This document shows positions 91 through 6,622 of a DNA stretch of 33,986 nucleotides, piece after piece. Source of the DNA: Chloroflexota bacterium. GTDB taxonomy: Bacteria; Chloroflexota; Limnocylindria; Limnocylindrales; CSP1-4. Location of the stretch: positions 1 to 33,986 of the forward strand of contig VEOW01000165.1 in the NCBI GenBank assembly GCA_012026785.1, read 5' to 3'. A model generated the notes under the pieces. That model had not been told where the DNA came from and did not search any database. It worked only from the letters and a program-made list of their open reading frames with translations. The first letter of the stretch is position 1; each line of letters begins with the position of its first letter. Position numbers and translations under genes: made by a program.

Positions 91-2283
91 GCCTGGTTGC
101 GGGCCGGCCGCGGGACGGGCTACGGCGCCGAGCGGGTGACGGGGCCCCGCCCGGCCGAGGGCAACATCCGCGGCGGGATCGGGACCGACCGGCTCGGGCG
201 TCCGGATCCGCACTCGTCGGTGGCCCGCGTGGAGCCCGCGCCCGCGCCGCAGCCGCGCGGCGGCAGCACGGCCGGAATGAGCGATTGGGAGCGCTGGCTC
301 GAGTTCTGCGCCCGGATCGACGGCTTCCCCCGCCACCTGAGCATCCACTCCGGCGGGATGCTGGTCACGCGCGCCCCGCTGATCGACATCGCCCCGCTCG
401 AGCGGGCGACGATGAAGGACCGGGTCGTCGTCCAGTTCGACAAGCGCGACGTCGAGGAGCTCAAGCTCATCAAGCTGGACCTGCTCGGGCTCGGGATGCT
501 GGCCGCGATCGACGAGACCGTGCAGCTCATCGAGCACGACTGCGGGACGTGCGTCGTCCTCGATTCGATTCCCGAACAGGTGCCCGAGGTGTTCGACATG
601 CTCCGGGCGGCCGACACCGTCGGGGTCTTCCAGGTCGAGAGCCGGGCCCAGATGCAGACCCTGCCCAAGTCGAGGCCCGGATCGCTCGACGATCTCGTCG
701 TCGAGGTCGCGATCATCCGGCCGGGCCCGATCCAGGGCAACGCGGTCCATCCGTACCTGCGGCGCAAGCAGGGTCTCGAGCCGGTGACCTACCTGCATCC
801 GAGCCTCGAGCCGGTGCTCAGGGATTCGATGGGCGTGATCCTGTACCAGGAGCAGGTCATGCGGATCGCGATCGAGGTCGCGGGCTTCAGCCCGGCCGAG
901 AGCGACGGCTTCCGGCGGGCGATGGGCACGTGGCGCTCGACGCGGGAGATGGAGAAGCTCCACCAGCGCTTCCACGACGGCTGCCTGCGCCAGCCGGGCA
1001 TGACCGAGGAGATCGCCGAGGAGCTGTTCCGCCAGGTCGCGGCATTCGCAAGCTTCGGGTTCGCCAAGAGCCACGCCGCGGCGTTCGCGCGGACGGCCTA
1101 CGAATCGGCCTTCCTGAAGCTGTTCTATCCGGCCCAGTTCCTCGTCGGCCTGATCAATGCCCAGCCGATGGGCTTCTACCCGGTCGAGGTGCTGGTGAAC
1201 GATGCCAAGCGCCACGGCGTGGCCGTCCTGCCGGTCGATCTCAACGCGAGCGGCTACAGGACCACGACCGAGTGGGTCGGCCGGCCGGGCTGGGCGCTCG
1301 CGGGAGCGGCGGGCGACGACGGCTCCCTCGACGACGAGACCGCCCATCCCGGCGAGCCGCTGCCAGAAGGTTCCGGGATCGAGGCCCGGCCGCGACCGGT
1401 CAGGTCCGCCGCGTGCGTCATGCCGGGCGCCGCGGCGCGAGACCGCTGGGCGGCCGAAAGCGCGGTCGGCTGGGGCGTTCGACTGGGACTGGGCCTGGTC
1501 AAGGGCATCGGCGAGCAGCACGAGGAGCTCCTGGACCGGGAGCGGGAGCGCGGGCCGTACCGCTCCCTCGCCGACGTGGTGGAGCGCACGGGATTGCCCG
1601 AAGAGACGATCGAGCGTCTGATCCGGGTGGGCGCGCTGGATTCGCTCGGGCGGCCGCGGCGGGAGCTGCTGTGGCAGCTGCGCGAGGTCGCCGGGTCGGC
1701 ACGGGGACGCGTGGACGGCAAGGCGCTTCGAACCGCGGCGCGGGCCGGTGGCCGGCGCTCGAAGGCGGCCGGGCGGCCCCTGGACCTCCGGCTGCCGGCC
1801 ACCGATGCCCCGGACCTGCCGCCGATCAGCGAGCCGGAGCGCCTCGGTGACGCCTACGCGGTCGTCGGCCTCGATGCCCGTCGCCAGGCGGTGTCGCTGT
1901 TCCGCGATGCTCTCGAACGGCTCGGGGCCGTTCCGAACGCGGCGCTCGCCGAACGCCGCCCCGGTCCGGTTCGAATCGGCGGCCTGGTCGTCACCCGCCA
2001 GCACCCCATGACCGCCCGCGGAACCGTCTTCCTGGCGCTCGAGGACGAGACCGGCATGGTCAACGTCACCCTCTGGCCCGACACCTGGGCGAGGCTGCGC
2101 GGCGTCGTTCGACGCCACGCCCTGCTCCTGGTCGACGGCGACCTCCAACGGGACGCGTCGGTCGTCAACATCGTGGCTCGCGAGGTCGTGCCGCTGACCA
2201 CCGCCGCCGAATCGGTCGACGGACCCGAGTCCCCGTCAGGGGTTCGACAGCTCGGCTACGCCGGGATGCGGCGGCTCGGGTAG
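91..2283 (+). CDS. dnaE2: Error-prone DNA polymerase DnaE2 (ImuC), 3' part
   Basis: C-terminal 730 residues of a C-family polymerase that performs translesion synthesis, normally with ImuA/ImuB as part of the SOS mutasome. DnaE2 hallmarks are FPRHLSIHSGGMLVT (about 325-370), the third palm aspartate in LIKLDLLGLGML (codon 478-480), and GVFQVESRAQMQTLP followed by VVEVAIIRPGPIQGNAVHPY (about 625-755), which separates DnaE2 from replicative DnaE1. Fingers and the helix-hairpin-helix region follow, then a C-terminal OB fold (about 1960-2200, VRIGGLVVTRQHPMTARGT). The PHP domain and the first two palm aspartates lie beyond the contig end. Full-length relatives are about 1,000-1,100 residues. The first 60 or so residues (91-280) are Gly/Arg/Pro-rich and look like a disordered insertion before the conserved block. 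The true start is missing; imuA/imuB, if present, would lie off the contig. Confidence 0.93.
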   Translation, partial: AWLRAGRGTGYGAERVTGPRPAEGNIRGGIGTDRLGRPDPHSSVARVEPAPAPQPRGGSTAGMSDWERWLEFCARIDGFPRHLSIHSGGMLVTRAPLIDIAPLERATMKDRVVVQFDKRDVEELKLIKLDLLGLGMLAAIDETVQLIEHDCGTCVVLDSIPEQVPEVFDMLRAADTVGVFQVESRAQMQTLPKSRPGSLDDLVVEVAIIRPGPIQGNAVHPYLRRKQGLEPVTYLHPSLEPVLRDSMGVILYQEQVMRIAIEVAGFSPAESDGFRRAMGTWRSTREMEKLHQRFHDGCLRQPGMTEEIAEELFRQVAAFASFGFAKSHAAAFARTAYESAFLKLFYPAQFLVGLINAQPMGFYPVEVLVNDAKRHGVAVLPVDLNASGYRTTTEWVGRPGWALAGAAGDDGSLDDETAHPGEPLPEGSGIEARPRPVRSAACVMPGAAARDRWAAESAVGWGVRLGLGLVKGIGEQHEELLDRERERGPYRSLADVVERTGLPEETIERLIRVGALDSLGRPRRELLWQLREVAGSARGRVDGKALRTAARAGGRRSKAAGRPLDLRLPATDAPDLPPISEPERLGDAYAVVGLDARRQAVSLFRDALERLGAVPNAALAERRPGPVRIGGLVVTRQHPMTARGTVFLALEDETGMVNVTLWPDTWARLRGVVRRHALLLVDGDLQRDASVVNIVAREVVPLTTAAESVDGPESPSGVRQLGYAGMRRLG

Positions 2284-2293
2284 CGCGGGATGG

Positions 2294-3004
2294 TTAGCGG
2301 CGGGCGCTTCGTCGCTGGCTGGTGGAGCGACTCGAGGTCCGGCTCGCGGGCCGGCGGCTGGTGAGGGCCAGGAAGCGGCGGTACCAGGCGGCCGACGCGG
2401 CGAAGAGCATGCCCCCGAACGGTCCGCTCACGAAGCCCAGGAACAGCAGGTTCGACATCTGCTCCGGCGGCACCGCGGCGCCGAGACGATCGCCGAGCGT
2501 CGTCAGGATGGTCGTGAAGATGACGCCCTGGATGAGCCCCACGCCAAAGCCGAGGAGATAGCTGGCCCGCGGCGCGAAGAACCCGGCGACGAGCTGCGGC
2601 GCGATCGCCGCGCCCGGCCAGACGAGGAGCTCGAAGGCGAAGGCCGAGCCGTCGTAGCCGGGGAATGCGACGAGCAGCGCCGCCCCGGCGAAGCCCAGCA
2701 GCGTTGCGGCCACGAAGGCGCGGGTCGTCAGCAGCTTCGGCAGGAGCACGAGATCCTCGCGCAGCTTGGCCGGGCGGTAGGCCTCCCGGAAGGCGGCACC
2801 GAAGCCGAGGCGAGCATTCGGATCGCGCTTCTCGGGCTTGATGTCGGCCTGGCGCGCCGGCCGTCCCGAGGAACGGCGCTCTTCCGACCCGGTCGACTCG
2901 TCACCCTCGGCGTCGAGCTCGGTGTCCGCCGTGACGGCCTCGGCCGCCTGCTGGCGATGGCGGCGGCGCGCTTCCGCGCGGGCGGTGTGCTTGGCTCGAG
3001 CCAC
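2294..3004 (-). CDS. Hypothetical four-helix membrane protein with basic N-terminus
   Basis: Unrecognised protein of 236 residues. I place the start at a GTG (3004-3002, VARAKHTARAEARRR) because CGAGGAGA lies just upstream on the same strand (3016-3009). The longer frame to 3064 has no such site and would start inside the predicted promoter. The first 85 residues are charged and soluble (Arg/Lys-rich, then acidic). Four hydrophobic segments follow: one in RAFVAATLLGFAGAALLVAF, one around FELLVWPGAAIAPQLVAG, one around YLLGFGVGLIQGVIFTTIL, one around LLFLGFVSGPFGGMLFAAS. The C-terminus is a Ser/Arg-rich tail. The gene converges on dnaE2 with an 11-bp gap. Its upstream region carries the phased 11-bp repeat array with a TACGAT -10-like hexamer, so it may be regulated from there. 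Function unknown. Confidence 0.75.
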   Translation of the reverse strand: MARAKHTARAEARRRHRQQAAEAVTADTELDAEGDESTGSEERRSSGRPARQADIKPEKRDPNARLGFGAAFREAYRPAKLREDLVLLPKLLTTRAFVAATLLGFAGAALLVAFPGYDGSAFAFELLVWPGAAIAPQLVAGFFAPRASYLLGFGVGLIQGVIFTTILTTLGDRLGAAVPPEQMSNLLFLGFVSGPFGGMLFAASAAWYRRFLALTSRRPASRTSSRSTSQRRSARR

Positions 3005-3055: not shown

Positions 3056-3061
3056 ATCGTA
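3056..3061 (-). promoter_or_regulatory. Candidate -10 element for the membrane-protein gene
   Basis: The minus strand reads TACGAT here, the same hexamer as the hrcA -10. No TTGACA-like -35 is present. Instead, the proximal unit of the 11-bp array (TCACCG on the minus strand, 3079-3074) ends 12 bp upstream. That is how PhoB-class activator boxes replace the -35. The predicted transcript would start near 3049, giving a leader of about 45 nt. Confidence 0.4.
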
Positions 3062-3068
3062 CACGCGA

Positions 3069-3167
3069 TCCGGCGGTGAGCGGCGGGTGATCGGCGCGTG
3101 ATCCGCGGATGATCGGCGGTTGACCGGCCGGTGACCGGCCGGTGATCCCCGGATGAGCGACGCGTGA
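3069..3167. repeat. Nine-unit 11-bp phased direct-repeat array in a divergent intergenic region
   Basis: Nine consecutive 11-bp units each end in TGA, at 3077, 3088, 3099, 3110, 3121, 3132, 3143, 3154 and 3165, with no slip in register. Examples are GCGGCGGGTGA, TCGGCGCGTGA and the identical pair CCGGCCGGTGA. On the other strand the core is TCAC or TCAT every 11 bp. The units differ in their first seven bases, so this is not a simple slippage microsatellite. Eleven-bp direct repeats are the classical architecture of OmpR/PhoB-family binding sites; Mycobacterium PhoP, for instance, uses 7-bp TCAC motifs with 4-bp spacers. The array lies between the membrane-protein gene and the surface-protein gene and could act on either. 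Regulator identity is inference. Confidence 0.8.
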
Positions 3168-3229
3168 GCGAGGCCTGCTAGAACGAGGGCTGCCGTCTCG
3201 CCCGGCGCACCGAACCCGCCGGGAGGGTC

Positions 3230-6200
3230 GTGCTCGTGGAACGCGTCCGAGCTGCGCTCGTCGCCGCTGTTGCCGTGATCCTGGTCCTGGGCGGGGCGGC
3301 AGCTGCTGCACCCGCGCTGCCGACCGCCGAGGAGGCGGCCGCCGGCGGCTGGCCTCCCGCGACGCTGCTGCTGTCCGAGGTCCAGACCGGCGGTGCCTCG
3401 GCGTCGGACGAGTTCGTCGAGATCACGAACGCGGGGGCCGCGGCCGTGGACCTGGCCGGCCTGGAGATCGTCTACGTCACCGCGACGGGCGGCACGATCA
3501 CCCGCAAGGCGTCATGGGCGGAGGCGCAGGCCCTCGATCCCGGGCAGCACCTGCTCGTCGCGAACGGTTCGGGTACCTACGCCGGCCTGGCGGATGGCAC
3601 GTACAACGGGGGCTTCGCGGCGACGGGCGGCGCGCTCGTCCTGCGGCCCATCGGCGGCGCGCCGATCGATGCGATCGGATGGGGCGACGCGACGAATGCC
3701 TTTGTCGAGGGGACGCCAGCCCCGGCGCCCAGCGCCGGCTCGAGTCTCGAGCGGCTGCCCGGCGGCGCGCTCGGAAACAGCCTCGACACGAACGACAACC
3801 TGGCCGACCTCTTCGTCCAGGCAGCGCCGAATCCCCAGTCACTGGCCGCGCCCCCGGTGCCCGCGCCGGAGCCCTCGCCAACGCCGGACGCCACCGGCAC
3901 GCCGACCGAACCTCCCGCGCCGACGGCCGAGCCGACGCCGGAGCTGACCCCCGCGCCGACCGACACGCCCGCACCCACCAGCACGCCTACCCCGACCGAC
4001 ACGCCCGCCCCGAGCCCGTCAGCGACACCGGCGCCGACGCCCAGTCCGGCTCCCTCCGCCTCCGCTCTGCCGGCCATCTCGATCCTGGCCGCGCGAGGCC
4101 TGCCCGACGGAACGGTTGTCCGGCTCGTCGGCGTCCTGACCACCCGCCTGGGCGCTCTCGAGGGTGGCCGGAAGGCCTTCGTCCAGGATGACGGCGCCGG
4201 GATCGCGCTGTATCTCGACGCTCCCGTGGTCGACGGTCTGCCCGGCGACACGCTGGTCGACGTCGTCGGCACGCTCGACGCGCGGTACGGCGAGCGAACG
4301 ATCCGGGCCAGCATCACCGACGTCGTCGCCCTTGGCGAGCAGCAACGCCCCCAGCCGTGGTTGCGCCAGACGAGCGAGATCGACGAGTCGACCGAGGGCT
4401 ACCGCGTCATCGTCGAGGGCACGACGGTCGGCTCGCCGACCGCCTATGCCGACGGGCTCGGCCTGCTCGTGGACGACGGCAGCGGGGCCGTCCGGGTGAT
4501 CGTCAGCCCCGACGCCCTCGGCGGGGCCAGCGTCCCTGCCGGGACGCGGGTCGTTGCGGTCGGTCCCGTCGGCCAGCGGGACTCGAGCGGTACCGGGGCC
4601 TCCGGCTACCGGATCCACGCGACCGAGCAGGTCGAGTTCGCGATCCTGCCGCCGCCGACCCCGTCCCCATCGCCGACTGAAAGCCCGACCACGCCGCCCA
4701 CGCCGACCCCCACGGCGACGCTCATGCCGACGCCCACTCCGATTCCGACACCTTCTCCTTCAGCGACTGCGACGCCGACACCCTCGCCGAGCCCGAATCC
4801 CGCCCCGGTGCTCACGATCGTCGAGGCCCGTGGCGCCGGCGTCGGCACGACGGTCACCGTCTCGGGCGCCGTCAGTGCCGAGGCAGGGCGGATCGGGACC
4901 CCGAACCTCATCGCGATCGCCGATGCCAGCGGTGGGATCGCCGTCCGCGTGCCGAAGGGTGTCACTCCACCGGAGCGAGGGGCGACGGTCCGCGTCACAG
5001 GGCCCCTGGCGGACCCCTACGGCCAGTTGGAGGTGCGGCCCACGGCGTCTGGTTTCAGCGTCACCGGCAGCGGCTCGCTGCCCGCGCCGGTCGAGATCGG
5101 GGCAGCCGAGCTCGGCGAGGAGACCGAGGGCTCGCTCGGCGTCATCGTCGGCAGCGCCGGCTCGAAGGCAAAGAAGGCATCCGGCGGCGACCTGTCGCTC
5201 GACCTGGTCGATGCTGCGGGCGACACCTTCCGGGTGATGATCGATGCGTCCAGCGACATCGAGGCGACGGATGTCCCGGTCGGCACGAGCCTCCGGCTGA
5301 CCGGGGTCGTCGGTCAGCGGGCGACTCGAAAGGGCGCCCTCGATGGCTATCGCATCTGGCTTCGCGATCGGTCCGACATCGTCGTGATCCCGTCCGGTGG
5401 CGGCGGCGCGTCGACGAGCACTGCGGCAACGCCGATCGAGGCGGTCCTCGAGCTGCCTGACGGGCGCGCCGTCGTCATCGAGGGCATCGTGACCGCGGGG
5501 ACGGCGCTGCTGGACGGCAGCGGGCGGCGACTCGTGGTCCAGGACGAGAGCGGTGCGGTCGAGGTCGTCCTGCCGGCCGGGACCCCCGGCCCGGCGGTCG
5601 GGACGCGCCTCCGGATCTCGGGTGAAACGGGCCACGCCTGGGACGCGCCACGCGTGGTCGCGGCCGAGGTGGTCGTTCTCGGCTCAGGCAGCGTCTCGCC
5701 GTCACCCCGACAGCTGCCTCCGGGGGCCCGCGACGAGTGGCAGCTCGTCCGGGTTGCCGGGACGATCCTCAAGGTCGAGCGGCTGGGCGATCGCTGGCGG
5801 GCCGAGCTGGCCCTCGGCGGCAGCGAGGCGGTCCGGGTCCCGATCGTGGGCCAGGTCGGCGCCGGGATCCCCTCGACCTCGATCATCGTCGGCCGCCAGG
5901 CGACGATCGTCGGGATCGTGAAGCGACCGTACCCGACCGCCACGGATCGTCGCTTCGCGGTGATGCCCCGCAGCCGCTCCGACGTCGCCATCGGGCCGGA
6001 GAGCGGAACGGCATCGGGTGGTGGCGGGTCGGCTGCCGCGGGCGAGCCAGGCGGGAGCGCTGGGAGCGGCGCCGCCAGCTCGCCGGCTGCCGGGTCCGCG
6101 AATCCAGCGGTGGTCACGCCGGACACCGATCTCGCGACGCTGTCCGAGCACCTCGGCGAGGTCGTTCGGGTTGGCGGCCTCGTCACCAGCGTCACCCTCG

Positions 6201-6622
6201 AGGGCTTCGCTCTCGACGATGGGACGGCCGTTGTCCCGGTCGTTCTCCAAGACGAGTTCGCGGGCTTGCTACCGCACGTCCGCAGCGGTGAGGCGGTCGC
6301 CGCGACGGGGCGGGTGGAGCTGCTGGACGGTCAATACGGGGTGATCGTGGACGCCGGCGGGACGCTCGTCCGGGTGGGCGACCTTGGCCAGGCCATGCCG
6401 TTCGTCGAGGCGCCGAGCCCGCAGCCGTCCGAGGGCCCGCCTGCCCTGGCCCTCGATGCCGTCTGGCTGGGACCCGATCCGGCGTCGACGAGCATCGCGG
6501 CGATGCTCGTGGTGGCCGCGCTGTCGGCCCTCGTGACCATCGCCCGGCGGCAGCGCCTGGAGCGGCGGCTTCGGGCGGTCGTCGTCGCCCGCCTGGCGAG
6601 GCTCCGCGATGACGCCGCCTGA
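3230..6622 (+). CDS. Surface-anchored lamin-tail / multi-OB-fold repeat protein
   Basis: A 1,130-residue exported protein starting at GTG with GGGAGGG upstream (3221-3227). A basic N-terminus and hydrophobic stretch (about residues 8-28) form a signal sequence. A lamin-tail-like domain follows (about 43-190, LLLSEVQTGGASASDEFVEI). A Pro/Thr/Ser linker (bases about 3850-4070) leads to two OB-like modules, a second Pro/Thr linker (about 4650-4808), then four more OB-like modules. A Gly/Ser/Ala linker (about 6003-6115) precedes a seventh OB-like module. A transmembrane helix (about 1088-1105) and an Arg-rich cytoplasmic tail end the protein. Module pairs repeat as units: STEGYRVIVEG and ETEGSLGVIVG open equivalent modules, and GYRIHA and GYRIWL close them. 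Lamin-tail and OB modules accompany secreted nucleases such as the ExeM class, but I see no nuclease active-site domain here. Likely a cell-surface binding or scaffold protein; the ligand is unknown. Confidence 0.85.
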   Translation: MLVERVRAALVAAVAVILVLGGAAAAAPALPTAEEAAAGGWPPATLLLSEVQTGGASASDEFVEITNAGAAAVDLAGLEIVYVTATGGTITRKASWAEAQALDPGQHLLVANGSGTYAGLADGTYNGGFAATGGALVLRPIGGAPIDAIGWGDATNAFVEGTPAPAPSAGSSLERLPGGALGNSLDTNDNLADLFVQAAPNPQSLAAPPVPAPEPSPTPDATGTPTEPPAPTAEPTPELTPAPTDTPAPTSTPTPTDTPAPSPSATPAPTPSPAPSASALPAISILAARGLPDGTVVRLVGVLTTRLGALEGGRKAFVQDDGAGIALYLDAPVVDGLPGDTLVDVVGTLDARYGERTIRASITDVVALGEQQRPQPWLRQTSEIDESTEGYRVIVEGTTVGSPTAYADGLGLLVDDGSGAVRVIVSPDALGGASVPAGTRVVAVGPVGQRDSSGTGASGYRIHATEQVEFAILPPPTPSPSPTESPTTPPTPTPTATLMPTPTPIPTPSPSATATPTPSPSPNPAPVLTIVEARGAGVGTTVTVSGAVSAEAGRIGTPNLIAIADASGGIAVRVPKGVTPPERGATVRVTGPLADPYGQLEVRPTASGFSVTGSGSLPAPVEIGAAELGEETEGSLGVIVGSAGSKAKKASGGDLSLDLVDAAGDTFRVMIDASSDIEATDVPVGTSLRLTGVVGQRATRKGALDGYRIWLRDRSDIVVIPSGGGGASTSTAATPIEAVLELPDGRAVVIEGIVTAGTALLDGSGRRLVVQDESGAVEVVLPAGTPGPAVGTRLRISGETGHAWDAPRVVAAEVVVLGSGSVSPSPRQLPPGARDEWQLVRVAGTILKVERLGDRWRAELALGGSEAVRVPIVGQVGAGIPSTSIIVGRQATIVGIVKRPYPTATDRRFAVMPRSRSDVAIGPESGTASGGGGSAAAGEPGGSAGSGAASSPAAGSANPAVVTPDTDLATLSEHLGEVVRVGGLVTSVTLEGFALDDGTAVVPVVLQDEFAGLLPHVRSGEAVAATGRVELLDGQYGVIVDAGGTLVRVGDLGQAMPFVEAPSPQPSEGPPALALDAVWLGPDPASTSIAAMLVVAALSALVTIARRQRLERRLRAVVVARLARLRDDAA

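Follow-up and report, generated by a model that had tools for sequence, protein, structure and literature searches.

An array of nine 11-bp direct repeats between two divergent genes is quite probably the operator of the gene for a lamin-tail domain (LTD) protein, would be bound by a predicted OmpR-type activator, and would place this gene's promoter in a competence regulon. The array was found in a window of 33,986 nucleotides, the whole stretch of contig VEOW01000165.1 of a Chloroflexota bacterium that was analysed. It appears to be the longest member found of a competence/recombination regulon that is apparently undescribed; the literature searched describes no competence regulon from this lineage.

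The whole array sits inside the 225-bp gap that separates the divergent genes (starts at 3004 on the minus strand and 3230 on the plus strand). Its nine GTGA-type units start at 3076, 3087, 3098, 3109, 3120, 3131, 3142, 3153, and 3164, a pitch of exactly 11 bp, and it reads toward the LTD gene, with the last unit at 3164 to 3174. The preliminary description had reported nine TGA triplets at exact 11-bp spacing between divergent genes, which we confirm, and had placed the start of the array at 3069, about 7 bp too early. TGA (unit positions 2 to 4) and C at position 6 are invariant in all nine units and the remaining columns vary; a G follows TGA in three units and is absent from six. With the window simulated 100 times under a Markov-1 model, the longest run that any 3-mer formed at period 11 averaged 3.85 and reached at most 5, and the array is the sole case in the 3.77-Mb genome of TGA recurring at least five times at 11-bp spacing, the reversed control pattern of this run having no match in the same genome. 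Because no simulated window exceeded five repeats and the genome holds no other run of at least five, chance does not explain the array. The features of the region are as follows.

2294 to 3004, minus strand: P0002, small basic membrane protein, family not recognised, divergent from the LTD gene
3056 to 3061, minus strand: -10-like TACGAT of the divergent membrane-protein gene, to which the array is not phased
3065 to 3075, plus strand: possible degenerate tenth, most distal unit GCGATCCGGCG, in register, proposed from sequence only
3076 to 3174, plus strand: array of nine 11-bp direct repeats of GTGAnC type (GTGA of the last unit ends at 3167), read from the sequence and kept in orthologs
3164 to 3169, plus strand: proximal unit GTGAGC, 15 bp upstream of the -10, with an equal offset at ssb, radC, comEA, comM, tag, and LTD promoters
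3176 to 3184, plus strand: extended -10 TGCTAGAAC of the LTD gene (TAGAAC at 3179 to 3184); orthologs keep TGSTA[CG]AAC
3221 to 3227, plus strand: predicted ribosome-binding site GGGAGGG of the LTD gene
3230 to 6622, plus strand: LTD gene, putative array target, with signal peptide, lamin-tail domain, OB-fold (PF01336), and C-terminal membrane anchor

The LTD product has 1130 residues, is predicted to be secreted, and resembles DNA-binding proteins. An error-prone DNA polymerase gene (DnaE2-like, PRK05672; window positions 97 to 2283) converges on the membrane-protein gene beside the array. Gene calls were made with a simple codon-usage script, and part of the genomes are incomplete.

Orthologs of the membrane protein were detected in 53 of 81 related genomes, and the intergenic gap was read in 30 of those. 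Arrays of the same kind are widespread in these gaps, with unit number differing between species. With one -10 candidate (TAGAAC or TACAAC) taken per locus, 61 RTRA words in 23 orthologous LTD promoters lie at 15 + 11n bp from the LTD -10, compared with 7, 1, 1, 1, 0, 0, 0, 0, 1, and 7 in the other ten phases, so that the remainder is mainly one base to either side; six of 29 LTD loci have no clear -10, and in three (L019, L020, and L030) the LTD-side units are shifted out of register by one base. In the window, the 15 bp from the proximal GTGAGC (3164 to 3169) to TAGAAC (3179 to 3184) match the ortholog rule. The preliminary description had also linked the array to the membrane-protein gene by a TACGAT placed as in PhoB-activated promoters. 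The hexamer does exist (3061 to 3056, minus strand), is conserved, and lies close to the array in the window, but the array is unphased to it: across the 30 orthologs, the units are spread over all 11 phase classes relative to the membrane-gene -10 (13, 11, 8, 4, 4, 4, 3, 14, 11, 7, and 4). Control of the membrane-protein gene through TACGAT is accordingly very improbable. Since phase is fixed to the LTD -10 and takes every value relative to the membrane-gene -10, the array belongs to the LTD promoter, and as far as phasing can tell, it is the operator of the rightward LTD/OB-fold gene and not of the membrane gene.

The preliminary description had proposed a search of the genome and its relatives for such arrays, and they are kept in orthologous promoters and recur at many other loci; the proposal of a protein site thus survives the refutation that the preliminary description had set for it. 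A search for three consecutive TCAC/GTGA units with an 11-bp pitch gave 71 matches in 49 family genomes, compared with one control match, and the GTGA strand of three-unit arrays is mostly oriented toward a gene. Three GTGA units alone were rejected as a regulon marker: only about 10 of 40 loci had an in-phase -10, the rest including coding junctions and XRE genes. With the -10 at offset 15 included in the pattern (RTGAN7RTGAN10STANNNT), there were 39 matches and no control matches in the 49 family genomes, and at least 23 of the 39 lie before ssb (10) or radC (13), with tag and yraN among the others. A position matrix was next built from 23 ssb and radC sites and applied to comEC and dprA loci outside the building set, where it identified a module with ATAAGC units before the comEA-comEC operon of the window's genome and of one relative; the module is found upstream of comEA-comEC in 10 of the 20 comEC regions examined, the window's genome included. 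The widened form RTRAGN6RTRAGN9STANNNT matched 94 times in the 49 family genomes and seven times in 32 others, and its reversed control had no match in the genomes scanned. A narrower form scanned over the whole class (177 genomes) matched 97 times in 107 family genomes and three times in the 70 other genomes, with no control matches; those three lie in two f4 genomes. By these matches, the module is specific to one bacterial family.

Strict classification of the module targets gave 15 radC, 11 ssb, 11 comM-dprA, seven comEA-comEC, and one tag. ComM/YifB, RadC, Ssb, and Tag were confirmed by domain searches, and the identity of ComEA is supported by SLBB and HHH_3 domains, with TIGR01259 below its cut-off. 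The widened form brought out comM-dprA operons, in which comM starts 13 to 14 nt after the -10; this start is leaderless and speaks for the -10 as assigned. In the window's own genome, the module was seen before comEA. The comM of this genome (L344, G000:C176) lacks its 5′ part, being N-terminally truncated, and is split into two frames; either transformation may be compromised in this strain or the contig may be faulty. Several module matches precede noncompetence genes (toxin-antitoxin, secreted proteins, and CoA-transferase). The reading as a competence regulon follows from the fact that the only gene sets matched repeatedly are DNA-uptake and recombination genes, and the presence of one shared element before uptake genes (comEA-comEC and dprA) is what would be expected of a competence-regulon promoter.

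Across L239, L292, and L308, together with L294, L302, and L260, the genes behind the module comprise apparent toxin-antitoxin genes (BrnT confirmed in L239), one DNA-methylase-like gene, and one recombinase-like gene; together, these would apparently be mobile-type cargo under a competence-type promoter. The g3 genomes (L286, L289, L340, L341, and others) carry an almost invariant module, ATAAGCCGCAGGTAAGCGCCGATGAGTAAGGT, which in L286 precedes a leaderless gene resembling a CoA-transferase subunit. The f4 genomes G073 (L299) and G071 (L301), which are outside the family, have a module with near-identical units before an orthologous 334-residue secreted protein, and both also carry a response regulator of the L361 type described below. 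A short, conserved transcript-like locus (first ~450 bp) follows the module at L257, L262, L265, L267, L269, L274, L275, and L276. A conserved 5′ region comes first, followed by an ORF of 31 to 32 residues whose last residues are MRRW (or KRW); behind the ORF lie a CCUUCCUCCCGG stretch and then a hairpin resembling a terminator. In three genomes, the window's included, the micro-ORF MRRW alone replaces the longer ORF. An Rfam search of this small-RNA-like gene returned subthreshold matches only. From its layout, the locus looks like a small RNA with an anti-Shine-Dalgarno sequence, as in the csRNAs driven by CiaR.

The best-conserved module units read RTAAGC, not GTGA; neither these units nor the competence/recombination regulon had been foreseen in the preliminary description. 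Two ATAAGC-type units are present in six of seven classified comEA promoters (three units in the other), and comM promoters have two units in 10 of 11 cases. The ssb promoters have two to five units and the radC promoters two to four, mostly GTGA, and at LTD promoters the number rises to as many as seven in relatives and to nine in the window; the site is unusually large, as first described. This correlation, judged by eye, suggests that many weak GTGA units may replace two strong ATAAGC units.

Could the array be a neutral tandem repeat, grown by slippage and without function? Unit number does vary among species, and a few arrays elsewhere (L087 and L106) have nearly identical units. However, only TGA and C6 are invariant in the window while the other columns vary, the units keep one phase to the -10 from genus to genus, and the module recurs before mutually unrelated sets of homologous genes with zero control matches; slippage is the least credible explanation of all and is refuted by the conserved phase. 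The original proposal of a protein site on one helical face holds up, given conserved orthologous arrays with variable unit number and strict phase. A regulon that answers to DNA damage in an SOS-like manner, instead of serving competence, is a more substantial alternative: the matches include ssb, radC, tag (DNA-3-methyladenine glycosylase), and pcrA (overlapping its start), and an error-prone DNA polymerase gene lies nearby in the window. Yet the strongest units are borne by comEA-comEC and comM-dprA, which act in uptake and transformation, and the array at recA (L108) is far from the start and out of phase, so we regard a damage regulon as unlikely.

The competence regulon would need a regulator, and the preliminary description had looked to a co-conserved response regulator, for which no good match emerged. 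The window's genome encodes 16 clear OmpR-type response regulators (strong matches to PF00486, Trans_reg_C), and the module, which autoregulation would place upstream of the regulator's own gene, was found before none of the 13 with a modelled start. The best candidate, L361, is an orphan response regulator whose recognition helix (VSRVRRKL) is the best match to that of CiaR (VSKVRKKL). Its distribution is suggestive: about 73 of 107 family genomes carry it, as do five f4 genomes, including the two with the module, and it is absent from f2/f3; among the best 15 candidates per genome, it was not found at E ≤ 1e-70 in the module-positive G014, G019, G020, G025, G031, G032, and G036. Absence from several module-positive family genomes rules out L361 as the sole regulator. 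The L355 regulator-kinase pair, which is 81 to 83% identical across three other family genomes and 48% identical to the best f2/f3 match, is a possible regulator. Across the window's genome and the comparison set, which excludes 22 unparsed loci, no response regulator was tied to the module by linkage, autoregulation, or co-occurrence. This last result is consistent with a real module coated by a binder outside the OmpR family, such as an XRE protein, a small winged-helix protein like BldC, or a member of another family. An XRE-family gene lies directly downstream of seven of about 40 arrays of at least three GTGA units, the GTGA strand being oriented toward it, and a BldC oligomer can span a variable number of repeats (PMC5859096). 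The XRE-linked arrays (L074, L087, L091, L093, L094, L096, and L106) have three to seven units directed toward XRE-family HTH genes. However, they have no phased -10, BldC recognises 9-bp, not 11-bp, repeats, which have AATT cores, and the box sequence, pitch, and -10 distance here match CiaR exactly; a non-OmpR binder, though worth bearing in mind, is therefore rather unlikely.

We propose that a direct-repeat-binding activator, most likely a response regulator of OmpR/PhoB/CiaR type, would bind one molecule per 11-bp unit, with successive molecules arranged head to tail on the same face of the helix. The proximal molecule, 15 bp upstream of the -10, would stand in for a -35 element and recruit RNA polymerase, and through cooperative binding, a long row of weak GTGA units would probably equal two strong ones. 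The same module would drive comEA-comEC, comM-dprA, ssb, radC, and further genes as a family-specific competence regulon, in which the LTD protein may have a role in DNA uptake. A cooperative OmpR-type activator is the most likely binder because of the match to CiaR, the rows of units known for Streptomyces PhoP, and the differing pitch of BldC. A bolder version, which we put forward as possible but doubtful, is that a new, lineage-specific competence regulator assembles with up to nine molecules head to tail, that the number of weak units is tuned against their strength, and that the regulon couples DNA uptake (comEA-comEC, comM-dprA, ssb, and radC) both to a small RNA and to a new DNA-handling protein, the secreted LTD/OB-fold product. 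The module names genes that are likely to be induced jointly for natural transformation, among them the uncharacterised LTD/OB-fold protein and the small-RNA-like gene, and it points to an undescribed control switch for this process. Promoters with anywhere from one to nine in-phase units also form a natural series in which the trade-off between site strength and site number could be studied.

Several known systems resemble the module in part. The E. coli PhoB pho box, with two units per box, consists of 11-bp direct repeats that replace the -35 element about 16 bp from the -10; its core, TGTCA, is read toward the promoter, and no competence genes are involved. The core bound by Streptomyces PhoP is GTTCACC. 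Direct repeats of 11 bp near the -10 are common to the E. coli pho box and the array, but the cores differ, and we rejected a Pho regulon or pho box for the module, whose core is RTRAG/GTGA and whose examined matched genes include none recognised as a phosphate gene. RpaA of Synechococcus elongatus is an OmpR-type regulator. In competence of that species, it acts upstream of the DNA-uptake genes via a sigma factor SigF2 cascade, and the part of the source drawn on here describes no phased multi-unit module, unlike that found in the present family (PMC7125226). BldC binds 9-bp direct repeats with AATT cores as a head-to-tail oligomer covering a varying number of repeats and is partly a repressor (PMC5859096); the 11-bp pitch and GC-rich units here, as opposed to 9-bp AT-rich ones, rule out a BldC-type site. 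Streptomyces PhoP is closer, its PHO boxes being 11-nt direct repeat units, core and weaker ancillary, with four core units and two more at pitH2, so that OmpR-type regulators evidently can cover such tandem rows cooperatively; its targets are phosphate genes, and about six units are the most described there compared with nine here (PMC7866108). In the CiaR box of the OmpR family, NTTAAG-N5-TTTAAG, the -10 follows after ten more bases, and three letters are invariant: the third T, the second A, and the final G. Streptococcal CiaRH has an effect on competence, and the small RNAs that it drives are complementary to Shine-Dalgarno sequences (PMC3091779). The module differs in having R for one T, units that are often GTGA(G/T/C), and up to nine units in tandem; unlike the CiaR system, its host is GC-rich and the DNA-uptake genes themselves bear it. 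The T-x-A-G core of CiaR is found at the strong promoters (RTRAG), and six of the nine window units have no G at that place. The OmpR/PhoB-like architecture first suggested for the array is borne out in its 11-bp direct-repeat pitch and in the fixed spacing from proximal repeat to -10 (ten bases after the G), both as in the CiaR box, and xRTRAG-N5-xRTRAG-N10-TAnnnT equals that box in pitch, -10 distance, and invariant letters.
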